Source: Mycobacterium sp. 155 (GTDB lineage Bacteria; Actinomycetota; Actinomycetes; Mycobacteriales; Mycobacteriaceae). Taken from it: DNA of 64,000 nt. The notes below the pieces were generated by a model that was given only the letters and a program-made list of their open reading frames with translations, was not told the origin of the DNA and did no database searches. Below are positions 41,030-45,164 of this stretch, piece after piece (the first letter of the stretch is position 1; every line of letters starts with the position of its first letter). The position numbers and the translations under genes were made by a program. Location: assembly GCF_000373905.1 (NCBI RefSeq), contig NZ_KB892705.1, forward strand, positions 3,980,478 to 4,044,477. Reading direction: 5' to 3'.

Positions 41030-41701
41030 CAGGTCAGGCGGGATTTCGGGAGTTCGTATCAGGTCCCGGGATCACGCCACATGACACGATGTGACACATG
41101 GGCTCCGGCATTGACGGCGTCCGACATCTGCGGTCGGCGTGGGGACGGCGGCTCCGCATGCGAGGCCGGACGGCGCCACACGTCAGGGCGCTGCGAGAGA
41201 CCATCGTGAACGGACCGAATCCCTTGAGCCGCAATCGAATACGAGCGCCAAAATGATTCCAGTGATTGATGCCGCAACGCGCGAAGAATGCGCGACGGTA
41301 ATTTAGTACAGACGCCGATCACCGCACGACGGACGATTCCGCCGGTGGCTCCAGAGCCCGATCGAGTCACCCGTTGCCATTCATCGGAATCGCCGCAAAT
41401 CGGACGATATGGTGACGTTGAGTGTCTGATCCAACAGTTTGCTGTTGGTGTGAGTGCGACGGATTGTACGAGGTCGGATAGGGGAGCGCGATTCGTCTGC
41501 GGGTACCGAAAAGTCCGACGACGACTCATTGGCAACACTCCTTGCGCTATCTCATTCAATCCGGGCGGTGTGATAAATGTGGGTCGCACGAATTTGCTTA
41601 GGACTGCGTTGGTGCGTTATGACCTTGCGTGATGCGGATCACTGCACGTTAGATGTCGACCAATTCTCGATTGAGTGAGTCAGAAGGAATGAACGCCCAC
41701 A
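41030..41701 (+). other. Gene-poor region downstream of tRNA-Ser
   Basis: About 670 bases with no convincing gene. Base composition is less GC-rich than the surroundings, with AATTTG and TGATAAATG stretches. It contains the hairpin CCAACAG-TTTG-CTGTTGG (41431-41448). A short palindrome GTGAT-GCGG-ATCAC (41629-41642) lies about 60 bases before the next gene and could be an autoregulatory operator. A 114-codon open frame at 41288-41632 has no ribosome binding site or recognisable protein. Confidence 0.6.
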
Positions 41702-43300
41702 ATGATGGTTGCGAAAGGTCCCCGGTTCTCTGAGTCCGACCGCGCGGCACTCCTGCGCATCGCTGCATCGCGGCAAACGCCCCAAGGCGTGGCGACCCGC
41801 GCCAGGGCCGTCATCGACTGTGCGGATCTTGGCATCGCCGAAGCCGCCCGACGGTCCTCGGTGAGCCGTACGACGGCGGCCAGATGGTGGCAGCGCTACC
41901 TCGACGCCGGCGTCGAAGGTCTACGCGATGTCTCACCCGCCGGCCGCCCTCCGGCCCCTGATGAGGTTGTCCACCGCGTCCTGAGCTGTTCCCTCGATGA
42001 TCCCCCGGGTGGCCGCCAGCGATGGTCGACCCGAGCCATCGCTGAGGTCACCGGCGTCAGTCAGGCGACCGTCAGCCGGATACGGCGCCACTACTTCCCT
42101 CCGCTGCAACCGGGAGCAGCTGTCCTACAGGACTTTTCGACATCGGTCCTCGACTACGTCGACGTCCACCGGTCAGGATGCGCCCTGGGCTTTCTTGCGT
42201 CGAACGAGGCCTCACCGCGCCGCACACCGCCAGCCGTCCGCCTCGACATCGTGGAGACGGTCATCTGTGCAGCACTTCTGCGCTTGCCGAGTCGCGGACA
42301 GGCAGAGACCGTAGACGACGCGCCCGACGCGGTTACCCTCCTCGAACGCGCGGTTGAACGACTACCCTCCACGCCGGCGGTGACTCTCGTCGTCAATGCC
42401 AAACTCGACGCAGCCGCCCGACGATGGCTCTCGCGTCACCCCGAGATCACCGCACACGCGGTCACGGGAACAGACTGGTTCGGTCTGCTGCACTCGGTAG
42501 CCGACGCCATCGACCCACGCCAGCTGGCCGAGCTACGCGAGGTTCAGCAGCACATCCGCCACGCGCGACGCGACGGCGCCGACGAGTTCGTCTGGTGCCG
42601 AGCAGTCACTCCGCCGGCGCCGGTAGCGACCCGGACCGCTTCCGACGCCGAGACCGAGCCTCCCGCAGGCAACTTCACTCACGTCATTCGAGGTATCTGC
42701 ACCGCTGTCGCCGAAGGCGAGGTGCAGCCCGGCGACACCATCTCCGCACACCACATCGCCCGGAAATGTGGTGTCTCCCCGGGCCGCGTTGCCGATACCC
42801 TCGCGCAGCTGGCGGAAGAAGCTCTGGTCGACAAACACGCCGGCCGTTACCTGTTGCCCGTTCCCACGCCCCGCGATGTCATCGAGACTTATACCGCTCG
42901 CAGCCTGCTCGGCACCGTGATCACCCGGCGGCTGGCCTCCACGCGCATCGAACTGCCGCCGGTTGTGGACGAGTATTTTGCCGGATTGGTTCGATGCGAC
43001 GAACTCGGACGCGTCTACGAGGCCGGCGACCTCGACCTGGATCTGCAGGACGAGTTGGCGACGACGGCGGCGATGCCGCGGATCGGATCGATGTTCATCC
43101 GGTTGACCCTGCAATTGCGGCTGTTCGTCACGATTTTCGGATTGAACTACCGCTATCCGACCGATGAGATCATCAGGGATGACCGTCGAATCCTCGACGA
43201 GATCCGGCGCCGCGATCTGGACGGAGCCGTCAGCGCATGGCATAGCAAGATCGACAACTGCGCACGCTTCATGCTCACCCATCTCCGCCCGATCCAATGA
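41702..43300 (+). CDS. IS630-transposase-derived regulator fused to a GntR/FCD module
   Basis: This 532-residue protein joins two unrelated parts. Residues 1-270 follow the layout of IS630-family transposases: helix-turn-helix (RARAVIDCADLGIAEAARRS, then SRTTAARWWQRYLDAG), a second HTH (RWSTRAIAEVTGVSQATVSR near 108) and a degraded DDE region. There the expected acids are replaced: DEKS by NEAS, DNY by NAK near residue 231, and the WLNxVE glutamate by His in WFGLLH. Residues 324-532 resemble a GntR winged helix (ISAHHIARKCGVSPGRVADT) with an FCD-type ligand domain. It is probably a DNA-binding regulator, not a transposase. The ATG at 41702 lies 15 bases after AGAAGGAA. Target and ligand are unknown; the enolase-superfamily gene downstream is a candidate target. 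Confidence 0.75.
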   Translation: MMVAKGPRFSESDRAALLRIAASRQTPQGVATRARAVIDCADLGIAEAARRSSVSRTTAARWWQRYLDAGVEGLRDVSPAGRPPAPDEVVHRVLSCSLDDPPGGRQRWSTRAIAEVTGVSQATVSRIRRHYFPPLQPGAAVLQDFSTSVLDYVDVHRSGCALGFLASNEASPRRTPPAVRLDIVETVICAALLRLPSRGQAETVDDAPDAVTLLERAVERLPSTPAVTLVVNAKLDAAARRWLSRHPEITAHAVTGTDWFGLLHSVADAIDPRQLAELREVQQHIRHARRDGADEFVWCRAVTPPAPVATRTASDAETEPPAGNFTHVIRGICTAVAEGEVQPGDTISAHHIARKCGVSPGRVADTLAQLAEEALVDKHAGRYLLPVPTPRDVIETYTARSLLGTVITRRLASTRIELPPVVDEYFAGLVRCDELGRVYEAGDLDLDLQDELATTAAMPRIGSMFIRLTLQLRLFVTIFGLNYRYPTDEIIRDDRRILDEIRRRDLDGAVSAWHSKIDNCARFMLTHLRPIQ

Positions 43301-43370
43301 CGCCCAGCGTTCATGGAACCCGTGTCGCCACGCCTCAAATGTTCTGACTCAAGCGGTCGCCGCATATTGA

Positions 43371-43599: not shown

Positions 43600-43818
43600 A
43601 TGACTGAAAAGCGGTTAGATAAACCCGGTTTCGTTGTTGTCCGGTGGGGCACACACGGCGCAGCCTATATCCGCTTGCCGATCTACGCCGTTCGGGACGC
43701 CGCACTGGCCGCCCTCATCAACGAGACCTGCGAGCTGGTCGTCGCGTGGAAAGGGACGGACACCGACACTCTCGCTGGGATCAGCGAACACAGCTGGAGC
43801 ACGGCACGGAAGCACTGA
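43600..43818 (+). CDS. Small hypothetical protein
   Basis: A 72-residue protein that I do not recognise, starting MTEKRLDKPGFVVVRWG. The ATG at 43600 has GGGAG five bases upstream, and codon use is ordinary for the genome. No membrane segment or known motif is visible. It lies between the transposase-derived regulator and the enolase-superfamily gene in an otherwise gene-poor stretch. The following 242 bases up to 44060 hold no other gene that I can support. Confidence 0.5.
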   Translation: MTEKRLDKPGFVVVRWGTHGAAYIRLPIYAVRDAALAALINETCELVVAWKGTDTDTLAGISEHSWSTARKH

Positions 43819-44060
43819 CTGGGATCAGACCCCCTTCGGAGGCGCAGCCGGACCCCAAGCCGAAGCGGAACCTCGCGAGGCGGAGCTGTTCACCATGACG
43901 CCCGGTCAGCGTTGATCGCCGCCGGCGATCGGCGGTGCCCACCCGGTGATGTAGGACGCCTTGTCGAAGTCCAGGAGGTGAGGAGGCAATATTTACGAAT
44001 AGCTAGCCGGAACAATGCTGATCCTGGCCATGGCGACGAGAAACAGGCGAGGATTAAACC

Positions 44061-45164
44061 ATGAAAATCACTGCAGTCGAGGCGATTCCGTTCGTCATCC
44101 CATTTCTCAAGCCGGTGAAGTTCGCCTCGGGTGAGGTATATACCGCCGACCATGTATTGGTCCGCGTGCACACCGACGACGGCGTCGTCGGGGTCGCCGA
44201 GGCGCCGCCCAGGCCGTATACCTACGGCGAAACGCAGGCCGGGATCGTCGCTGTCATCGAGCAGATCTTCGCGCCCGCGCTGGTCGGGCTACCCCTTACC
44301 GCTCGCGAGATCGCGGGTAAACGGCTGTCTCGCACGGTGGGGAACCCGACCGCCAAGGCGGCGATCGACATGGCGATGTGGGATGCATTGGGCCACACCC
44401 TCGGTTTATCGGTCGGCGACATGCTCGGTGGCTACACCGACCGCATGCGGGTCAGCCACATGCTGGGTTTCGATGATCCGGAGCGCATGGTCGCCGAAGC
44501 CGAGCGAATGCGAGACATCTACGGCATCGGCACATTCAAGGTCAAGGTCGGTCGTCACCCGGTGTCGTTGGACACCGCGGTGGTTCGCGCGCTGCGAGCG
44601 CGGTTCGGGGACTCGGTCGAACTCTACGTCGACGGTAACCGCGGTTGGTCTTCGTCGGAATCGTTACGCGCAATGCGCGAAATGTCGGATCTGGGACTGC
44701 TTTTCGCCGAGGAGCTGTGTCCGGCCGACGATGTGTTGGGGCGGCGCTGGCTGGTCGGCCAGCTCGACATCCCGTTCATCGGCGACGAATCCGTGCCGAC
44801 ACCCGCCGACGTGACCCGTGAGGTGCTCGGTGGGGCGGCCACCGCGATCAGCATCAAGACGGCACGCACCGGCTTCACCACCTCCACCCGGGTGCACCAC
44901 CTGGCAGAGGGCCTCGGGGTGGAGTTGGTGATGGGCAACCAACTGGACGGCCAGATCGGAAGTGCCTGCTCGGTGGCCTTTGGTACCGCGTTCGAGCGCA
45001 CGTGCCGTTACGCCGGCGAACTGTCCAACTACCTCGACATGAGCGATGACCTGCTGAGTGTGCCCCTGCAGATCACCGACGGTCAGCTGCAACGCAGCAC
45101 AGGTCCGGGACTGGGTATCGAGATCGACCCGGACAAGCTCGCCCGCTACCGCACCGACAAGTGA
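44061..45164 (+). CDS. Enolase-superfamily muconate cycloisomerase-like enzyme
   Basis: A 367-residue enzyme of the muconate lactonizing subgroup. The capping domain spans residues 1-125. The barrel shows the K-x-K pair in FKVKVG (near residue 160), the metal ligands in DGNRGW, EEL and GDES, and the opposite-face lysine in SIKTARTGF (near 270). It therefore has the full catalytic set of an MLE-type isomerase or dipeptide epimerase; the substrate cannot be told from sequence. AGGA lies seven bases before the ATG. No catechol-pathway partner genes are next to it. Confidence 0.85.
   Translation: MKITAVEAIPFVIPFLKPVKFASGEVYTADHVLVRVHTDDGVVGVAEAPPRPYTYGETQAGIVAVIEQIFAPALVGLPLTAREIAGKRLSRTVGNPTAKAAIDMAMWDALGHTLGLSVGDMLGGYTDRMRVSHMLGFDDPERMVAEAERMRDIYGIGTFKVKVGRHPVSLDTAVVRALRARFGDSVELYVDGNRGWSSSESLRAMREMSDLGLLFAEELCPADDVLGRRWLVGQLDIPFIGDESVPTPADVTREVLGGAATAISIKTARTGFTTSTRVHHLAEGLGVELVMGNQLDGQIGSACSVAFGTAFERTCRYAGELSNYLDMSDDLLSVPLQITDGQLQRSTGPGLGIEIDPDKLARYRTDK

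Follow-up and report, generated by a model that had tools for sequence, protein, structure and literature searches.

What is a transposase doing in front of a bacterial regulator? The question is raised by a 532-residue open reading frame at 41702..43300 (+) in a 64,000-nucleotide stretch of the Mycobacterium sp. 155 genome, referred to here as the window. A preliminary description of this DNA had identified the frame, which is indeed present, and had proposed that a captured, dead IS630 transposase supplies a putative DNA-binding arm to an FCD-type regulator; the evidence from family, selection, trees and sites described below supports that reading. What is new is the sequence TGAGTCARAA located 5’ of the fusion gene, and its likeness to the ends of IS630 elements. 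We consider it probable that, after capture, the transposase continued to recognize its original DNA sequence and that the transposon ends became operators.

Architecture of the fusion protein

The gene encodes an IS630-derived N-terminal part followed by a GntR winged helix and an FCD domain, with all segments on the + strand. Two helix-turn-helix units, noted in the preliminary description, are readily confirmed, with Pfam matches across residues 30–127 that are well over cut-off (HTH_23 and HTH_32). The first spans residues 30–75 (41789..41926; HTH_23, 1.9e-13), and the second (HTH2) spans residues 104–131 (42011..42094) and has the recognition helix SQATVSR. They are followed by an eroded DDE domain that is RNase H-like by descent (residues 142–301, 42125..42604), and a low-confidence linker (residues 302–321, 42605..42664) with pLDDT below 50 at residues 302–322. 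A GntR-type winged helix (residues 322–385, 42665..42856) and an FCD domain (residues 386–530, 42857..43291) are recognized by sub-cut-off Pfam matches together with fold matches and, for the winged helix, structure prediction.

The C-terminal GntR/FCD assignment holds for the family and for the fold, although the query itself falls below the Pfam cut-offs for both GntR (residues 332–380, 21.9 versus 27 bits) and FCD (residues 397–515, 22.7 versus 24.3 bits). Of 16 family rows, 15 match the FCD model with E ≤ 1e-3 and a best value of 9e-15; the remaining row is presumably L010, which has no FCD part. The fold match to known structures is strong. The arrangement typical of the FadR/FCD subfamily, an N-terminal winged helix and then an all-helical FCD, is present. 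Relatives include TM0439 (3fms), McbR (4p9f), AlkR/VanR (9isw) and DhdR, and the fusion differs from these FadR-type regulators in its extra transposase arm of about 300 residues. An Asp/His metal-binding set is present in many FCD proteins but not in all, and here two His of the usual site appear to be replaced; in the family profile compared with 2hs5, the His of D-x3-H is Gln and the next His is Asp, with the third position not covered by the alignment.

IS630 ancestry and loss of the catalytic triad

An alignment to 21 IS630 transposases of actinobacteria is collinear over residues 2–300 (hhalign 99.95%, E 1.7e-37, columns 22–358 of 383), and on this basis the IS630 part, previously placed at residues 1–270, extends to about residue 300. 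A conventional GntR/FCD regulator whose N-terminal extension resembles IS630 in its helix-turn-helix units alone would account for the NCBIfam IS630 model matching only residues 33–129 (52.9 bits versus a cut-off of 100), and for the lack of a significant match between the predicted middle, RNase H-like domain and the PDB. We regard this as very improbable, both because the collinearity extends over whole transposases and because the segment from 132 to 302 on its own matches the IS630 catalytic region (92.5%, E 4.9e-7). This match covers the last 95 or so residues of the segment, starting before D2 and running to the C terminus, with the first 75 or so (approximately 132–207) lying outside it, and all ten control profiles (two reversed and eight column-shuffled) score no higher than 0.3%. 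A predicted structure lacking an RNase H-like fold at residues 130–270 had been named in the preliminary description as an observation that would speak against its reading; the domain predicted here has no significant counterpart in the PDB, which weighs to some extent against the model we favor.

The catalytic positions had been read as N, N and H. Profile alignment supports the second and third of these, with Asn232 (42395-42397) at D2 and His264 (42491-42493) at E, but D1 is Leu165 (42194-42196), and the Asn originally assigned to it is probably Asn168, three residues further on. Among the 15 full-length family members, the D1 column contains no Asp and five Glu, the D2 column contains ten Asp, two Asn and three others or gaps, and the third column has Glu in one. 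Fusion homologues with an intact triad had been named as the observation that would speak against a dead transposase; they were looked for, and an intact DDE or DDD triad is found in none of the 15.

ISY100, which belongs to the IS630/Tc1/mariner family, is reported to use a pair of helix-turn-helix units at its N terminus to bind its ends (PMC2170065). Collinearity over residues 2–300 and the paired units are features that the fusion shares with IS630 transposases, including ISY100 and the actinobacterial elements in L009, L103 and L102; with the actinobacterial elements it also shares the HTH2 motif SQxxVSR and the end core TGAGTC. It differs from them in having lost the triad, in the decay of its catalytic domain and in the appended GntR/FCD part, and whereas the IS630s are copies, the fusion paralogues differ at about half of their residues. 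Long IS630-like frames are also present in G678 and G850 (L139 and L140), and the IS630-like match in the query’s own genome (L004) has an internal stop.

A standalone 259-residue frame in G043 (L010, 1483–2259 (-)), beside what we read as a LysR-type gene, similarly has IS630-like helix-turn-helix units followed by a decayed core, but no FCD. Because it groups among the IS630s in the tree, it is probably a second and independent domestication.

Distribution, selection and phylogeny

A search of actinobacteria for the same fusion, as the preliminary description had suggested, recovers full-length relatives in several lineages. The query’s own genome has three full-length members, the two paralogues (b and c) being 46–50% identical to the query, and Mycobacterium sp. 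141 has four. The genome sets are overlapping samples of larger groups, such that the counts are not of unique genomes (G087 and G321, with the same coordinates, are counted as one), and membership was scored among the best 3–5 candidates per genome. On this basis full-length members occur in six of the 297 genomes sampled from the genus, three of 298 from the order (the own genome, G527 and G350), three of 394 from the class (the own genome, G767 and G882), and one of 246 from the phylum, which is the own genome itself. A search of 61 relatives found the fusion in the own genome alone, and the plasmid records searched gave no match at E ≤ 1e-20.

Most parts of the protein are under selection, with the dead core held more loosely, as judged from dN/dS in eight close but non-independent pairs. 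The values are 0.02–0.14 for the helix-turn-helix part, 0.19–0.46 for the RNase H-like part, 0–0.47 for the winged helix and 0.06–0.12 for FCD. Neither the winged helix (0.47) nor the linker (0.85) is clearly constrained in the pair formed by the query and its orthologue. Across five lineages, HTH2 is 65% identical and the GntR winged helix 33%.

All 15 fusions fall on one side of a branch both in the tree of N-terminal parts, which includes 21 IS630s and L010 (support 95/81, 96% of bootstrap trees), and in the tree of C-terminal parts, which includes 22 standalone GntR/FCD proteins (91/86, 92% of bootstrap trees). Neither tree has a fixed root, a midpoint drawing puts the G527 N-terminal part beside the IS630s, and the G882 N-terminal part is 38% filled in the alignment. 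The placing of all fusions on one side of a branch is the pattern expected if the IS630 and GntR/FCD parts were joined only once, and a single fusion event is probable.

A conserved candidate operator

The candidate operator TGAGTCAGAA lies at 41676..41685 (+), 26 bp 5’ of the query start codon, a position similar to that of the left terminal inverted repeat in IS630 elements. A second, inverted copy at 43342..43351 (-) is situated directly past the stop codon in the orientation of a right IS630 end, and is kept in Mycobacterium sp. 141; among the other paralogues a comparable downstream copy is seen only in M141c. The sequence TGAGTCARAA was first spotted by eye, and an unbiased count of 7-mers in eight lineages ranks TGACTCA first, with occurrences in five of the eight, which is equaled in 8 of 1000 shuffles.

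TGAGTCARAA is present at -26 in the query and its orthologue, at -39 in paralogue b and its orthologue, and at -29 in G527, in each case 5’ of the open frame of the regulator. It is also found upstream of the genes in G882 (at -25) and G767, although there the open frame continues upstream through it and the site may be coding. The variant TGATTCAC takes its place in paralogue c and its group, and neither form is found in the upstream regions of G199 and G350. In these two site-less members HTH2 carries VCR and VAR in place of VSR.

The sites could be neutral relicts of ancestral transposon ends that have no function today, and they do lie approximately where a left IS630 end, and for the query also a right one, would fall. 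However, TGAGTCARAA persists in three secure lineages whose proteins are only 30–46% identical and whose spacers otherwise have just a few 7–8-base runs in common, including TTGCGTGA (query and b), TGTAGACA (b and G527) and TGTCGAC (query and G527). Copies are also found near two catabolic loci with no regulator directly adjoining, and we consider the relict explanation improbable.

The whole own genome contains exactly five copies of TGAGTCARAA, versus one of the reversed pattern. Three are those 5’ of the query, inverted just 3’ of its stop codon, and 5’ of paralogue b. Another is 158 bp 5’ of an operon with a DapA-like first gene and genes resembling pyrroline-2-carboxylate reductase and proline racemase/hydroxyproline epimerase, and the remaining copy lies between hydroxyproline-epimerase-like and DddP-like genes. 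The presence of two copies around the query gene has P 1.6e-6, and that of three copies within the 75 kb that hold both paralogues, a betaine/hydroxyproline-type catabolic region, has P 4e-5, with both intervals having been picked after the sites were seen. In Mycobacterium sp. 141, four of seven copies are within 100 bp of family genes, one of these four lying between paralogue c and the same reductase/racemase-like operon. For the other carriers, in which most exact copies lie away from the regulator, the copies beside it are two of two in G882 (one of them intragenic), 1/3 in G767, 1/4 in G527, 0/1 in G111, 0/3 in G237, 0/5 in G133 and 0/1 in G199, and G350 has no copies; the reversed-pattern control gives 2 for G111 and 4 for G237.

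Relationship of the site to IS630 ends

The core of TGAGTCARAA is the core of the terminal repeats of actinobacterial IS630s, which end in CTAGTGTCCTGAGTCATTAATTC (both ends of two copies in G011, from the same genus) or in variants of it. The core of one intact mycobacterial IS630 begins 37 bp 5’ of the start codon on the strand of the gene, such that the candidate operator and the transposon core have a similar place and orientation relative to the gene. The outer part of the IS630 end (CTAGTGTCC) is absent from the query flanks, the outer 9 bp not having been retained.

The recognition helix of the query HTH2, SQATVSR, is of the type found in IS630s with GAGTC-bearing ends. We compared 28 distinct IS630 elements, of which 20 have recognized ends; the other eight, in which CTAG-type ends could not be identified, were set aside, among them L122, whose ends lack GAGTC. 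Ends carrying [TC]GA[AG]TC are present in 15 of 15 elements with an SQxxVSR HTH2 (14 of these scored by script and L115 assigned from its helix) and in none of the five others. The association of SQxxVSR with GAGTC-type ends is possibly an IS630 recognition code, although it may also reflect a single clade.

A model of the site derived solely from IS630 ends was used to rank the best upstream sites among 138. The query, paralogue b and G767 rank second, G527 first and G882 eighth, while members of the paralogue c group rank 8–13, G199 ninth and G350 forty-sixth, these last three with sites at other positions. The top control, at 16.3 bits, beats every regulator but one. This control (CTGAGTCGTCGATTA, L134 4024) is situated 5’ of a gene inside a betaine-type cluster in Mycobacterium sp. 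141 and is possibly a further operator; it and some other controls, which lie in catabolic clusters, may be real targets or chance matches.

Palindrome and the role of the winged helix

The preliminary description had suggested as a target the palindrome GTGATGCGGATCAC at 41629..41642, which is at -73 from the query start. The palindrome is present, but the likely operator, instead of it or in addition to it, is TGAGTCARAA. A match to the 14-bp palindrome is seen once in the window versus 1.29 expected by chance. Nonetheless, its form GTGA-N6-TCAC, which we take to resemble a CRP-type site, recurs at -73 to -78 in nine of 14 upstream regions from three mycobacterial lineages, including at -77/-78 in two paralogue lineages (L039, L040, L129–L131, L133 and L134).

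This conservation lends some weight to an alternative in which the operator is recognized by the winged helix, the transposase part serves passively for dimerization or as a spacer, and the likeness of TGAGTCA to IS630 ends is a relict or coincidence. FCD regulators normally bind DNA via the winged helix, which also speaks for it. We nonetheless think this alternative unlikely, if the most serious of those considered, because, of the segments measured, the winged helix shows the lowest conservation, at about half the identity of HTH2, while the site is common to lineages; because the helix-turn-helix part is under strong purifying selection; and because there are more copies of the site at loci distant from regulators.

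Neighboring genes

Thirteen of the 15 members adjoin a catabolic or transport gene. Nine are divergent from an OYE-type flavoenzyme, an assignment made for three by family model (TIGR03997, 452–479 bits versus a cut-off of 793) and for six by a common start peptide, five of these with frames of 683–707 residues and the sixth (L130) with a mis-called ORF. One member is divergent from an MFS transporter, two from a proline dehydrogenase of the PutA type (380 and 386 bits versus a cut-off of 747), and one is downstream of an L-serine ammonia-lyase (670 bits, over the cut-off of 345). In the own genome, the paralogues lie in a region with genes resembling glycine-betaine monooxygenase (402 and 409 bits versus a cut-off of 670), proline racemase/hydroxyproline epimerase and, in one case, pyrroline-2-carboxylate reductase (169 bits versus 266). 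As the names and substrates of these enzymes come mostly from sub-cut-off matches, any ligand named from them is a guess.

The query and its orthologue are without a clear catabolic partner gene. A muconate cycloisomerase gene at 44061-45164 (best match 3dg3, E 3.6e-204) was considered but not retained as a target, there being 760 bp between the two genes, and the alternative identification of its product as an HpbD-like proline-betaine epimerase was set aside on the 3dg3 match. A small ORF at 43602-43820 (+), of about 72 residues by eye, lies between the inverted site copy and this gene, and could be the query’s partner or a remnant.

The genomic context also bears on whether the protein acts mainly against IS630, competing for transposon ends as a repressor of transposition with its catabolic linkage incidental. 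Retention of the HTH2 type together with an end-like site would fit such a role, but against it stand the own-genome protein search, which finds a single IS630-like copy, interrupted by a stop, and the frequency with which members lie beside catabolic or transport genes. We give this explanation very little credence.

Discussion

We favor a model in which capture, probably a single event, placed an actinobacterial IS630 transposase ahead of a GntR/FCD regulator, and the catalytic domain of the transposase lost the DDE triad and decayed. The two helix-turn-helix units would still have the specificity of their ancestor for TGAGTCA, the IS630 end sequence, and the end-like sites by the gene, with the copies near catabolic operons, would serve as operators. 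The FCD domain would sense a metabolite, in most members probably one of the betaine, proline or hydroxyproline type, and ligand binding would alter operator occupancy, such that the protein regulates itself and the neighboring divergent or downstream catabolic genes. The fusion, its family, the loss of the triad, purifying selection, and the site with its likeness to IS630 ends come directly from the computation; we infer from these that the protein binds the site, which domain does so, that the outcome is repression, and the nature of the ligand. The broader reading, that a family of regulators arose when a dead IS630 transposase was joined, on a single occasion, to a metabolite sensor, and that the transposon’s terminal inverted repeats became operators of both the regulator and betaine/hydroxyproline-type operons, is one we hold at somewhat better than even. 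It follows from this broader reading that, as the repeats were the transposon’s own, protein and network would have been acquired together from one mobile element.

The nearest analogue that we have found is SETMAR (Metnase), in which the Hsmar1 mariner transposase is joined to a histone methyltransferase domain, and transposase capture is documented as an origin of new regulators in animals (PMC8327481). As described there, SETMAR resembles the fusion in joining a transposase of the Tc1/mariner/IS630 superfamily to a host domain, and it binds transposon-end sequences and affects nearby genes, which we predict likewise for the fusion. SETMAR is a human chromatin protein, whereas the fusion is a bacterial regulator with a sensor-type domain, and its end-like sites are few, with several at promoters. 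Viewed as a SETMAR-like capture, the fusion is present and the end-like site is conserved at several genes, with binding predicted. A 2022 review of mobile elements recruited for prokaryotic functions describes Xre- and RHH-type regulators, and IS630 is absent from its text (PMC8987985). In the open-access literature searched, we found no description of the IS630–GntR/FCD architecture, nor of a bacterial regulator derived by transposase capture that has a sensor domain.

With one 10-bp site and few genomic copies, the system is directly testable. It offers a natural modular design in which a transposase arm, predicted to bind DNA, is combined with an FCD sensor. If the proposed model is true, the protein retains its specificity for transposon ends as the ends turn into operators, and this family would illustrate one route by which a bacterial regulator and its operators arise together.
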